A stretch of DNA of 64,000 nucleotides from Chitinophagaceae bacterium (lineage in GTDB: Bacteria > Bacteroidota > Bacteroidia > Chitinophagales > Chitinophagaceae): positions 1 to 64,000 of the forward strand of contig CANGEW010000001.1 of the NCBI GenBank assembly GCA_947452965.1. Direction: 5' to 3'. Numbering within the stretch: the stretch's first letter is position 1; each line of letters begins with the position of its first letter. The notes below the pieces were generated by a model. That model was not told the origin of the DNA, did no database searches, and saw only the letters and a list, made by a program, of their open reading frames with translations. Below are positions 48,709-54,295 of the stretch, piece by piece. The position numbers and the translations under genes were made by a program.

Positions 48709-49650
48709 ATGTCAATGCAAACTGTCATTATAACTGGAGGAACTGGATTAGTTGGCAAATCCCTCACCAAATTGCTGGTTGACAAAGGATTTGAAGTGAT
48801 CATCCTTACCAGAAACACCCATAATCAACCCCAATTTCTACACGTTAGCTATGCTCATTGGGATGTAGCTAAACAAAAGATTGATACTGACGCATTAGCA
48901 AAAGCCGATTTTATTATTCATCTGGCGGGGGCGGGAGTGGTTGATAAAAAATGGACAGCTGCATATAAAAACGAAATCGTAACCAGCAGAACCAAAAGCA
49001 GTGAGTTATTGATAAACACTTTAAAAAACAACAATCATAAAGTGCAAGCAATCATCAGCGCCTCTGCCATTGGTTGGTATGGGCCGGATATCATACACGG
49101 AAAACAATTTATTGAAACCGATCCGGCTGACAATAGTTTTTTAGGAAACACCTGTAAAGAATGGGAAGAAAGCATTGAGCCTGCTACCAATTTAGGTATC
49201 AGAGTTTGCAAACTTCGTACAGGCATTGTGTTGAGTAAAAAAGGAGGTGCGTTGGCCGAGTTTATAAAACCTATCAAAATGGGTGTAGCCGCCATTTTGG
49301 GCAATGGCAAACAAATTGTAAGCTGGATACATATCGATGATCTTTGTAGAATGTTTTTATATGCCATTGAAAACAACCAACTTTCTGGAAGTTACAACGC
49401 AGTAGCGCCTATGCCTGTAACCAATAAAAACCTAACACTTACCTTAGCTAAAATAATAAAAGGAAGTTTTTTTATACCCATGTATGTTCCCTCATTGATT
49501 TTGAAAATCATGTTAGGACAAAGAAGTATAGAAGTACTCAAAAGTTGTGATGTTAGCTGTGAAAAAATCAAAGCAACAGGGTTTATTTTTCTATACCCAA
49601 GCATTGAAGCCGCTTTAAAAAATATCACAACTACTTCAAATTCTGCATAA
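48709..49650 (+). CDS. TIGR01777-family NAD-dependent epimerase/dehydratase-like protein
   Basis: TVIITGGTGLVGKSLTKLLVDKGFEVIILTRN; LRTGIVLSKKGGALAEFIKPIKMGVAAILGNGKQIVSWIHIDDL. Confidence 0.9.
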   Translation: MSMQTVIITGGTGLVGKSLTKLLVDKGFEVIILTRNTHNQPQFLHVSYAHWDVAKQKIDTDALAKADFIIHLAGAGVVDKKWTAAYKNEIVTSRTKSSELLINTLKNNNHKVQAIISASAIGWYGPDIIHGKQFIETDPADNSFLGNTCKEWEESIEPATNLGIRVCKLRTGIVLSKKGGALAEFIKPIKMGVAAILGNGKQIVSWIHIDDLCRMFLYAIENNQLSGSYNAVAPMPVTNKNLTLTLAKIIKGSFFIPMYVPSLILKIMLGQRSIEVLKSCDVSCEKIKATGFIFLYPSIEAALKNITTTSNSA

Positions 49651-51778
49651 AATAGTCGGTCACTTTTTGATATAAATGAGCCCTGTCTTTTCCCAGCACA
49701 TTATGCTCGTGTCCGGGATAAATCATGTAATCTACCTGAACCCCTTTGTCAACAGCTGCTTTTACCAGGTTTACTGAATGTTGCATGACCACCACATTAT
49801 CCTGCATGCCGTGAATCAACAATAACTTCCCTTTTAAGTTGCCTATTTTTTTGGTAAGATCTGTAGCATCGTATCCTTCTGGATTCTCCTGGGGGCGATC
49901 CATATAGCGTTCGGTGTACATGATTTCGTAGAACTTCCAATTAGTTACCGGACCACCGGCAACAGCCGTTTTAAAAATGCCCGGATGTGTAAGCATAAAA
50001 TCAACCGTCATAAAACCACCATAACTCCAGCCAAATAAGCCCATATTGTTTTTATCGGCGTAAGGCAATGATTGTAAATAATTAATGCCCGACATCAAAT
50101 CTTCCATTTGTTTTTCACCTGCTCTTCTAAAGATGGCTTGTTCAAAATCTTTGCCTCTGTTGGCGCTACCTCTTGTATCTAATGTGAATACTATATAGCC
50201 TCTTTCGGCCATGTACTGAAACCAGTAATCTCCTGCACCGCCGTTCCATGCATTCAAAATCATTTGTGCATGCGGACCACCATACCAATACACTATCACT
50301 GGATATTTTTTTGTGCTGTCAAAATTTACCGGCTTGAACAATCTGCAATACAAATCAGCACCATCTGAATTTTTGATAGTAAAGATATTTAGTTCGCCCT
50401 GGGCATATTTTACCAGCGGATTGTTGGCTTGTAACAAGGTTTTGCTTTTACTTGTTTTTGTTTCAATTAACTGAATGGTTCTTGGATTTTGAGGGGTACT
50501 TGCATTATCAAGAACATAACTACCGTCTTCACTCACTTGTGTATTATGAAGATTATTGCTTTCAGTGATGTTTTTTATTTTACCGGATTTTACATTTACT
50601 TCTGAAAGATTTTTTGATACTGGTGACACTTTCGTAGATACAAAAAACAGATTATCTCCCTTATCATCAAACCCTTTCACTTCAAGCACTTCCCAGTTTC
50701 CTTTAGTGAGTTGCTTTACAAGGGTTCCGTCTGAATTATATAAATACAAATGATTCCACCCGTCTCTTCTGCTTTGCCAAATGAATTGTTGCGGATTGTT
50801 TTTTACAAACAACATAGGTACTAACGGTTCAGCATATTTGCTGTCTGATTCTTCAAACAAAGTTTTCACATAAACACCAGTGGTGGCGTTGTATTGATTT
50901 ACCCAAAAATGATTTTGTTCTCTGTTTACAATTACTATGTAAATAAATTGATCATCAGGACTCCAGGCAATATTGGTCAAAAATTGTTCGGCAGGACCGG
51001 TAGTTTTAACCCAAATCGTTTGCTGTGTAATGGTATTATAAATACCCAGTGTTACATGATGACTCGAATCCCCGGCCATTGGATATTTCACATTATTAAC
51101 AGCAGCAGGTCTTTCTGTCCAGTCGATGATTGGGTAATTAGGAACCATGGTTTGATCCATTCTGTAAAAAGCAAGCAATTTTCCATTATTACTCCAAAAA
51201 GTTCCTTTGGTAATTCCAAACTCGCTTTGATGTACCGTTGACGCATACACGATATTTTCACTGCCATCGTTGGTAACTTGTTTGGTGGTATTGTTTTTTG
51301 AAACGAACAGATTATGATTGTCAACATAAGAAAAAAAGCCATCGTTGCTTTCTTCCAGGTTTTCTTTAGCATTTAGCTCTTTGTTGATAGCAATCTTACA
51401 TTCACCCGAAACTGTATTACAGTAAATTTTTTGTCCTTTAACGGTTGATGTCCAATGATCTTTGAAAAACTGAACAGCAGGCATGGAGGTTACCGTATCA
51501 ATAGACAGTTTACGCAATTGGTTATTGAATTGAGAAAGAGTTACAAAAGTGGATTCTTCTTTTGAAGTAAAAGAGCCTTTCATCCAGGTATCTGCTCCAT
51601 TTACTTTTTTTATGTACACATAATCATTAGTGCCTTTGATAAACTGAAGTTGCTTTAGATTTTCTGGCGCAAGAGTCGTTCTGGCGTTTAACATGGCCTC
51701 TTCCATGGTTAATTGCTGCAGTTGAGCAAAAGAAGAAGTTGCGAGAAACAAAAAGAAGACTAGAAGATATTTTTTCAT
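49631..51778 (-). CDS. S9-family prolyl oligopeptidase / DPP-IV-like peptidase
   Basis: Signal peptide MKKYLLVFFLFLATSSFAQ at 51778; catalytic GLFGWSYGGFMTVDFML and late HGMQDNVV...GHEHNV. Confidence 0.93.
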   Translation of the reverse strand: MKKYLLVFFLFLATSSFAQLQQLTMEEAMLNARTTLAPENLKQLQFIKGTNDYVYIKKVNGADTWMKGSFTSKEESTFVTLSQFNNQLRKLSIDTVTSMPAVQFFKDHWTSTVKGQKIYCNTVSGECKIAINKELNAKENLEESNDGFFSYVDNHNLFVSKNNTTKQVTNDGSENIVYASTVHQSEFGITKGTFWSNNGKLLAFYRMDQTMVPNYPIIDWTERPAAVNNVKYPMAGDSSHHVTLGIYNTITQQTIWVKTTGPAEQFLTNIAWSPDDQFIYIVIVNREQNHFWVNQYNATTGVYVKTLFEESDSKYAEPLVPMLFVKNNPQQFIWQSRRDGWNHLYLYNSDGTLVKQLTKGNWEVLEVKGFDDKGDNLFFVSTKVSPVSKNLSEVNVKSGKIKNITESNNLHNTQVSEDGSYVLDNASTPQNPRTIQLIETKTSKSKTLLQANNPLVKYAQGELNIFTIKNSDGADLYCRLFKPVNFDSTKKYPVIVYWYGGPHAQMILNAWNGGAGDYWFQYMAERGYIVFTLDTRGSANRGKDFEQAIFRRAGEKQMEDLMSGINYLQSLPYADKNNMGLFGWSYGGFMTVDFMLTHPGIFKTAVAGGPVTNWKFYEIMYTERYMDRPQENPEGYDATDLTKKIGNLKGKLLLIHGMQDNVVVMQHSVNLVKAAVDKGVQVDYMIYPGHEHNVLGKDRAHLYQKVTDYFMQNLK

Positions 51779-51810: not shown

Positions 51811-52072
51811 TAAATAAAATCCCACCCTTGTTGGTGGAGAACACCAACAAGGGCCACAAATTACAGAAAATTATATTGATGGAGAACAACTCGAACAAGG
51901 GCCAATCAAAGTGAGTAAATCCAGACCCTTTCTTATTGGTGTATAACACCAACAAGGGCCACAAGGGCAGATGAGAGTGAATAAATTCATCACCACCCTT
52001 ATTGGTATAAGACCTAGAACGACTTAGAATCTAGACCTTCCATGTTGGTGTAAAACACCAAGAATTGCCCAA
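51811..52072. repeat. Tandem array of diverged palindromic hairpin units (consensus near CCCTTGTTGGTG-n-CACCAACAAGGGCC)
   Basis: Perfect 12-bp inverted repeat at 51825-51853; further imperfect copies centred near 51884, 51944, 52008 and 52053, some with related GTGA(G/A)TAAAT spacers. Confidence 0.85.
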
Positions 52073-52135: not shown

Positions 52136-52166
52136 TTGCTTTATGCCCTTATTTGCGGTATTTTTG
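52136..52166 (+). promoter_or_regulatory. Candidate metG promoter (TTG-N20-TATTTTTG)
   Basis: TTTTG at 52135-52138, 20-nt spacer, TATTTTTG at 52159-52166; G of the -7 box lies 6 nt before the metG A(TG). Confidence 0.55.
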
Positions 52167-52171
52167 CCAAG

Positions 52172-54295
52172 ATGAATCAGCCTAAAAGATATTTAATTAC
52201 CTCTGCCCTTCCTTATGCTAACGGGCCCAAGCATATTGGCCATTTGGCAGGAGCATATTTGCCTGCAGATATATATGTGCGATATTTACGTGCTCAAAAA
52301 AGAGATGTTGTGTTTGTTTGCGGAAGTGATGAACACGGCGCCGCCATTACCATTCAGGCAATGAAGGAGCAAACCACCCCTAAAGCCATCGTTGATAAAT
52401 ACCATGCTTTGCTGGAAAGCAACATGAACGATTTGGGTATTTCTTTCGACATATACCATCGAACTTCTGCACAAATCCATCACGAAACAGCCCAGGAATT
52501 CTTTACCAAACTCAATAATAACGGCGATTTAGAATTGCAGGAATCTGAACAATATTTTGATGAAGCAGCCAATACTTTTTTGGCCGACAGATACATCACC
52601 GGCACCTGCCCTATTTGTAGTTACGATAAAGCCTATGGCGATCAATGTGAAAAATGCGGTACTTCCTTAAGTCCGGAACAACTCATTCATCCAAAAAGTA
52701 CGTTGAGTGGCAATCCTCCGGCCAAGAAAAAAACCACTCATTGGTATTTGCCTCTTAATAAACATGAGGACTTTTTACGGAAATGGATACTCGAAACACA
52801 TCAGTCCGACTGGAAAACGAATGTGTTGGGTCAATGCAAAAGCTGGATTGATGCCGGCTTACATCCAAGAGCCGTTACCAGAGACTTGGAATGGGGTGTT
52901 AAAGTTCCTTTGGCAGATGCTGAAGGAAAAGTATTGTATGTTTGGTTTGACGCGCCTATTGGCTATATCAGTGCTACCAAACAATGGGCCATTAACAATA
53001 ACAAAGACTGGAAACCTTACTGGGAAGATAAAGAAACCAAACTGATTCATTTCATTGGAAAAGACAACATTGTATTTCACTGTATCATATTCCCTGTAAT
53101 GCTTCAATTGCATGGAAACATTTTACCAGAGAATGTACCCAGCAATGAGTTCATGAATTTGGAAGGCGATAAAATGAGTACAAGCAGAGGCTGGAGTATT
53201 GAAATGGACGAATACATCACCGACTTTGTGAAAAAAGAAAATGGTGGCGATATGATGGTGGATGCACTTAGATATTATTTAACTGCCATCGCACCAGAAA
53301 CCAAAGACAGCGAGTTTACATGGAAAGGATTTCAGGACGCTTTGAACAGCGAACTTGTTTCCATATTCGGGAATTTTGTGAACAGAACATTTGTGTTAAT
53401 GCACAAATTATGCAATGGAAAAGTTCCTGCTTTTCATAATGACATCGCAGATGATGCAGATACAGCTCTGTTAAAAAATATACTTTATACAAAAGAGACT
53501 GTTGAAACAAATATAGAACAGTACAAATTCAGAGATGCATTATTTGAAGTGATTGACCTTTCTCGTAAAGGCAATAAATACATGCAAGACAAAGAGCCGT
53601 GGATTGTTGCCAAGCAGGTAGATGAGAATGGGAAACCCACTGCAGCTGCTCAAAAACAAATAGACAACTGCTTACATCATTGTTTACAACTATGTGCCAA
53701 TCTGGCTGTGTTAATTAATCCATTCCTTCCGCTTACCGCAAAAAAAATGTGTTACATGATGAAGGTGGTAGACAAAATACTGGAATGGGAAAATGCCGGA
53801 AAATCAAATCTCTTAAGCATTGGCTATTCATTAAGAGCACCTGAATTGTTATTCAGAAAACTGGAAGACGAGGAAGTGAAACAACAAATTGAAAAACTAC
53901 AAGCAAAAAGTAAAAAACTGATGGAAAATACTACGCCAGCTGCTGAACCAACTGTAAAAACTGTTGTATCAAAAGAAGAAATTCAGTTTGATGATTTTGC
54001 AAAAATTGATTTAAAAACAGGCACCATCGTTGCAGCCGAAAAAGTAGAAAAGGCTGACAAACTATTGAAACTATTAGTTGATTTAGGTTCCGAACAAAGA
54101 AGCATTGTTAGTGGTATTGCACTACACTTTCAACCCGAAAATATTATTGGGCAAAAAGTTGTAGTTGTGACCAACTTAGCCCCCAGAAAAATGAGAGGTA
54201 TTGAAAGCAACGGTATGATCTTAATGGCTGAAAATAACAATGGGAAATTATGCTTCGTGAGCAGTGATGTGGTGAACGGAAGCAATGTGAGTTAA
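52172..54295 (+). CDS. metG: Methionyl-tRNA synthetase
   Basis: MNQPKRYLITSALPYANGPKHIGHLAGAYLPADIYVRYLR; CPICSYDKAYGDQCEKCG zinc module; GDKMSTSRGW (KMSKS); C-terminal tRNA-binding domain (DLKTGTIVAAEKVEKADKLLKLLVDLG). ATG at 52172 preferred. Confidence 0.97.
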   Translation: MNQPKRYLITSALPYANGPKHIGHLAGAYLPADIYVRYLRAQKRDVVFVCGSDEHGAAITIQAMKEQTTPKAIVDKYHALLESNMNDLGISFDIYHRTSAQIHHETAQEFFTKLNNNGDLELQESEQYFDEAANTFLADRYITGTCPICSYDKAYGDQCEKCGTSLSPEQLIHPKSTLSGNPPAKKKTTHWYLPLNKHEDFLRKWILETHQSDWKTNVLGQCKSWIDAGLHPRAVTRDLEWGVKVPLADAEGKVLYVWFDAPIGYISATKQWAINNNKDWKPYWEDKETKLIHFIGKDNIVFHCIIFPVMLQLHGNILPENVPSNEFMNLEGDKMSTSRGWSIEMDEYITDFVKKENGGDMMVDALRYYLTAIAPETKDSEFTWKGFQDALNSELVSIFGNFVNRTFVLMHKLCNGKVPAFHNDIADDADTALLKNILYTKETVETNIEQYKFRDALFEVIDLSRKGNKYMQDKEPWIVAKQVDENGKPTAAAQKQIDNCLHHCLQLCANLAVLINPFLPLTAKKMCYMMKVVDKILEWENAGKSNLLSIGYSLRAPELLFRKLEDEEVKQQIEKLQAKSKKLMENTTPAAEPTVKTVVSKEEIQFDDFAKIDLKTGTIVAAEKVEKADKLLKLLVDLGSEQRSIVSGIALHFQPENIIGQKVVVVTNLAPRKMRGIESNGMILMAENNNGKLCFVSSDVVNGSNVS

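Follow-up and report, generated by a model that had tools for sequence, protein, structure and literature searches.

Five hairpin units between the divergent genes for an S9-family peptidase and methionine--tRNA ligase (metG), in the 64,000-nt stretch of Chitinophagaceae DNA analysed here (the window), are very probably a decaying array of repetitive extragenic palindromes (REPs), of a family linked to a REP-associated tyrosine transposase (RAYT). We base this assignment on intergenic, multi-locus copies of the hairpin that occur across Bacteroidota and flank a specific clade of RAYTs with a member in the host genome.

The units all lie on the same strand, about 50 bp apart, and span positions 51825–52070 (approximate centres 51839, 51889, 51944, 52005 and 52053; Table 1); wherever the orientation is readable, an A-rich loop has a GGC tag to its right. 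Decay in units 2, 4 and 5 has gone too far for full pairing. The array contains no inverted REPIN/BIME pairs, all of its units being in direct orientation, and the units are tied together by direct-repeat families of 29–49 nt with 60–90% identity. The original prediction, made from the sequence of the window, had described a perfect 12-bp inverted repeat, decayed relatives and related spacers, all of which are present, the first exactly as claimed. It had also seen no further copy in the 64 kb; we found none in the window at 0–1 mismatches, and copies exist elsewhere in the genome.

Table 1. Features of the array, its neighbours in the window and the RAYT of the host genome
Feature	Position	Strand	Description
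REP unit 1	51825..51855	+	perfect 12-bp stem CCCTTGTTGGTG-GAGAA-CACCAACAAGGG (51825-51853), then 3' GGCC tag; folds as hairpin
REP unit 2, decayed	51875..51903	+	ATTGATGGAGAACAACTCGAACAAGGGCC; GGGCC tag retained; 79% to unit 1 over 29 nt
REP unit 3	51926..51960	+	CCCTTTCTTATTGGTG-TATAA-CACCAACAAGGGCC; 90% to unit 1 over 29 nt; folds as stem-loop
REP unit 4, truncated	51996..52014	+	CCCTTATTGGTATAAGACC
REP unit 5, decayed	52042..52070	+	ATGTTGGTG-TAAAA-CACCAAGAATTGCCC
Spacer GTGAGTAAATCCA	51911..51923	.	with preceding bases CAAAGTGAGTAAAT, like relatives' conserved peptidase leader AAAAGTAAGGAAAT
Spacer GTGAATAAATTCA	51977..51989	.	second copy of same flank as 51911..51923; direct-repeat family D3
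S9-family peptidase	49631..51778	-	715 aa, signal peptide; neighbour, outside element
metG, methionine--tRNA ligase	52172..54295	+	neighbour
Probable metG promoter -7 element TATTTTTG	52159..52166	+	conserved in relatives; outside array
Host RAYT	G000:C7:29003-29494 (protein L176:1483-1998)		172 aa; apparently intact; within hairpin cluster; clade member

In GTDB, a strict version of the hairpin pattern was found in at least 118 stretches, nearly all of them from Bacteroidota and distributed over several orders; the matches outside Bacteroidota fell mostly within ORFs and were taken as chance. The hairpin is present in 2 to about 250 places in many Bacteroidota genomes, and the match counts per carrier run from 3 to 246 with both strands counted. 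The consensus of 306 unique units, each a DNA stem-loop of some 25 nt, is a 10-bp stem with a TTGGTG/CACCAA core and a loop of 3–6 nt, usually A-rich, followed by a 3' GGC tag that is conserved at 73–81% per position. The search pattern already fixed the inner six stem pairs, which are uninformative by themselves; outer pairs 2–4 are paired at frequencies of 0.81, 0.80 and 0.67, compared with 0.62, 0.62 and 0.39 in shuffled units, with C-G, G-C, T-A and A-T all found, i.e. they covary, and pairing ends at outer pair 5. Only 10 of 267 copies lie within ORFs of at least 200 aa, although these ORFs account for 62.5% of the DNA concerned, so that 96% of the copies, against 37.5% of the DNA, are outside long ORFs. 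A copy may stand alone, form an inverted pair with another about 100–125 bp away (common in Chryseolinea) or belong to a direct array with a period of 43–107 bp. The 5' GTAG/GTGG tetranucleotide of canonical REPs is absent from the family, which has the 3' GGC tag instead. Its absence rules out only the canonical REP type, because REPs of subclass 2.6 and class 3 are described in PMC6006769 as lacking GT[AG]G.

The commonest conserved neighbour of the hairpins is a divergent RAYT of about 172 aa that carries an HUH motif (NHIHIIW) and a Y motif (YIHNNP). This family matches Pfam Y1_Tnp weakly, and Y1_Tnp, used as a probe, retrieved ordinary IS200 transposases without nearby hairpins and missed the RAYTs of the host genome, which were recovered with a profile built from the hairpin neighbours. 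The best PDB match of the profile is E. coli TnpA-REP (4er8, E=5.5e-8), and the top-ranking NCBIfam model is that for REP-associated tyrosine transposases. In a tree of 41 proteins, the RAYTs that have a hairpin within 600 bp cluster together (0 of 500 shuffles gave a value as low). One clade (support 99/97) has a hairpin within that distance in 17 of its 23 members, the host's RAYT included; the seed alignment was drawn from hairpin neighbours and is biased in that respect, and nine positive loci, the host's among them, are outside the seed. The hairpin-negative members include L262, L263 and L265, whose flanks bear other or decayed hairpins, and 69 of the 73 hairpins flanking RAYT genes point outward.

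This partner gene also bears on whether the array is the relic of a MITE or an insertion sequence mobilised by a non-RAYT transposase. The many inverted pairs about 100–125 bp apart in high-copy genomes do resemble a miniature element with hairpin ends; however, such pairs are equally the standard REPIN/BIME form, no other conserved neighbour gene comes near the RAYT in frequency, and hairpins at canonical IS200 Y1 transposase loci are not above background (2–3 near-matches per 94–133 kb at ordinary Y1 loci and peptidase loci). We consider such an origin improbable and retain the RAYT-linked REP family.

Two observations concern the match between hairpin and RAYT. At L265 and L262, both from the host's genus, RAYTs of the clade are flanked by other hairpins (GTCTGGTCTCC-TGACCAACGGC; GCCGTGGCGTGGCC), and the REP sequence seems to change along with the RAYT. 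At L008 and L026 (Ohtaekwangia and a Bacteroides MAG), TTGGTG hairpins also lie close to RAYTs of another lineage, whose nearest relatives lack them; a partner switch or a simple insertion is possible there.

In the host genome, the strict pattern with a 5-nt loop rose above chance at the window locus only, which suggested a single orphan locus. That reading was ruled out when a 4-nt loop was allowed: with up to three mismatches there were 23 matches across the genome (both strands counted), compared with 0 for the reversed control. Four doublets form an array at C1:137.6 kb, C7 has a cluster, and C43 has an array of three units that lies between convergent genes and has 48–56 bp spacing like that of the window array; the copies on C18, C12 and C13 are single or weak. 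These counts are minimal, because the assembly is 87% complete and in 93 contigs. Within the genus, an exact GTTGGTG-N3..6-CACCAAC is present in 35 of 93 genomes, with a maximum of 61 sites; in some of these genomes, lone GC-rich matches look like chance. A stricter hairpin pattern had no match in 59 relatives. Three REP loci of the host (L176:2646-3410, L218:2507-3412 and L219:1131-1871) adjoin genes ending in GFSVRLVRD or GFSLRLVKD, which by eye resemble Fib_succ_major-type proteins; this may be chance if such genes are common.

The original prediction would have been abandoned had this been a single locus without conservation in relatives, an objection that the other host loci and the copies in many Bacteroidota remove. 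It had offered REP/MITE-like repeats and processed RNA stem-loops as readings and had proposed checking whether copies are intergenic and whether a REP-associated transposase co-occurs. The REP reading stands, with copies outside long ORFs flanking a RAYT clade represented in the host genome, and the RNA reading is unneeded.

The host RAYT was found by the neighbour-profile search of the genome (E=1.7e-55) and has intact motifs (NHIHLIW and YIHQNP). It scores 72.7 bits against the NCBIfam model for REP-associated tyrosine transposases (NF047646), just under the 80-bit cutoff, which its close relatives L078 and L082 exceed, and its AlphaFold model (pLDDT 91) has 4er8 as the top Foldseek match (E=1.2e-8). 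The hairpins around it have 4-nt loops and CAACGGCTC feet, accompanied by a second type, GTTGGTC-loop-GACCAAC; on its left side, the host RAYT breaks the outward-pointing rule. The window array, which is on a separate contig, has a 5-nt loop and an AAGGGCC foot instead. Because loop length and foot differ, the resident RAYT may not have placed the window array, which is possibly an orphan relic with respect to it; the mismatch in loop length suggests an array made by another RAYT, since lost or missing from the assembly, that is now decaying.

The REP cluster at C7 contains, at G000:C7:29616-29711 (L209:5616-5731), a second copy (98%) of 116 nt from the RAYT 3' end, as if copied with a hairpin unit. 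The host genome also has a second, degenerate RAYT (G000:C4:119420-119908; L177:1477-2016, minus strand), whose HUH motif reads NRIHIIW and whose NP is lost; it adjoins seven GTGTCGACACGCAC-type palindromes (L177:2127-2432), mostly 45–47 bp apart. A relative of this RAYT from a different species of the genus (L267) retains NHIHVIW; GTTCGTGTCGACACGAAC, which lies alongside, is a REP of like design but unrelated sequence.

The peptidase/metG gap is 393 bp in the host, compared with 125 bp in the closest relative and 205, 227 and 76 bp in others with the same head-to-head gene order; deletion of 51811–52072 would leave 131 bp. Since the gaps of these relatives are short and hairpin-free, the array is, judged from this comparison, a lineage-specific insertion. 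On the peptidase side, AATAAATAAAA abuts unit 1 and agrees with the relatives, in which the bases that follow it, GTAAGGAAAT, are similar to the in-array spacer GTGAGTAAAT. This is suggestive, and only suggestive, of an insertion that struck the peptidase promoter region, a piece of which would have been duplicated along with the units. The gap of the closest relative (L180) contains, at the corresponding site, GGTTTGTGTATGACCAACAAA, which looks like a hairpin of the second type (GTTGGTC/GACCAAC) in a decayed state and may be an older REP remnant. On the other side of the array is the probable metG promoter, whose -7 element was assigned by the consensus TAnnTTTG. The long peptidase ORF opens at 51964, the signal peptide MKKYLLVFFLFLATSSFAQ at 51778, and the orthologues align from the Met at 51778, so the upstream extension reads through the repeats and is artificial, as had been predicted.

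The position of the array between two promoters could point to a locus-specific regulatory RNA or attenuator, whose hairpins would be transcribed as part of the leader of the peptidase or of metG and would control expression; the spacer at 51904–51921 is like the relatives' conserved peptidase leader, so some hairpins could fall in the peptidase 5' leader. However, the hairpins are missing at this site in all relatives with the same gene order, the units are decayed, the array is upstream of the conserved metG promoter, the identical hairpin type adjoins unrelated genes, and the array sequence had no match among Rfam covariance models up to E=1, which together make regulation of this kind a shade less probable even than a MITE or insertion-sequence relic. 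GC-containing stem-loops within an intergenic gap might be taken for a bidirectional terminator or for chance palindromes, but both can be dismissed. About 230 bp of array hold three exact TTGGTG-N5-CACCAA sites, whereas 200 shuffles of the 64-kb window that preserved dinucleotides had 0.005 on average and 1 at most; no T-runs follow the stems (no simple terminator, as the first reading had held); and the covariation, phylum-wide recurrence, copy number and partner gene speak against both.

The TnpA-REP proteins of E. coli and Stenotrophomonas bind a single-stranded hairpin, cut beside it via a 5'-phosphotyrosine link and join the 3' end to another site (PMC8266576). By analogy, the RAYT, as an HUH/Y1 single-strand nuclease, would recognise its hairpin in single-stranded form, cut beside it through such a link and join the 3' end at a new location, seeding intergenic copies. 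The space between the promoters of the peptidase and metG would have received one or more REP copies in this way, and tandem duplication on the spot (of about 50 and 105 bp) would then have produced the five-unit array. We infer the mobilisation of the hairpin family by the RAYT lineage of this clade, the direction of cutting and the present state of the window copies as inert relics.

The case is of a known kind and fits the Bacteroidetes RAYT subclass 2.6 (Bertels group 5) with atypical REPs, described in PMC6006769: a TnpA-REP of about 179 aa with NH[LIV]H and YIH[QN]NP motifs and atypical, GTAG-free flanking structures that have copies elsewhere. The family studied here shares the phylum, the size (about 172–179 aa), both motifs, flanking structures with copies elsewhere and the absence of the 5' GT[AG]G tag. 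Compared by eye with the published table, not with its authors' model, the host RAYT agrees in length (172 aa), NHIH and YIHQNP, and has no clear match to the W motif (WQ). The passages of that paper on these REPs give no sequence, whereas the present analysis defines the core, the 3' GGC tag, a 10-bp stem with covariation and the outward orientation; the structures described there are weak, whereas the stem here is strong (12 bp and perfect in unit 1).

With E. coli TnpA-REP (subclass 2.2, PDB 4er8; PMC8266576) the family shares the HUH/Y1 fold, REPtron layout, intergenic hairpins and BIME-like inverted pairs; E. coli REPs, however, are GTAG-tagged and have a bulged stem, neither of which is found here, the tag being GGC 3' on the A-loop strand and GCC 5' on the other. 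Pseudomonas REPINs (PMC3116915) are likewise intergenic, RAYT-linked and, as in the high-copy genomes here, inverted hairpin doublets, whereas the window array is a direct tandem with another sequence and another RAYT subclass. CGTC-tagged palindromic repeats have been reported in Bacteroidetes among other phyla; these and the GTAG-tagged ones (PMC3733652) are also palindromic and intergenic, but their tags differ from the GGC(G)/(C)GCC of this family. The hairpin sequence itself yielded nothing, or unrelated eukaryotic sequences, in the text of open papers.

We raise, as a tentative and rather doubtful idea, that Bacteroidota share an ancient REP/RAYT lineage, with a TTGGTG-loop-CACCAA core near-unchanged over several orders and a GCC/GGC guide instead of GTAG, so that target choice and cleavage would follow pairing rules unlike those of every TnpA-REP studied. 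The single window locus is ordinary biology, a decayed repeat in a gap. The hairpin family explains spurious N-terminal extensions on gene calls, such as WPLLVFSTNKGG, and the Bacteroidota RAYT subclass with "atypical" structures gains a concrete sequence as candidate substrate, together with a REPtron layout and a set of listed carrier genomes, which makes binding and cleavage assayable.
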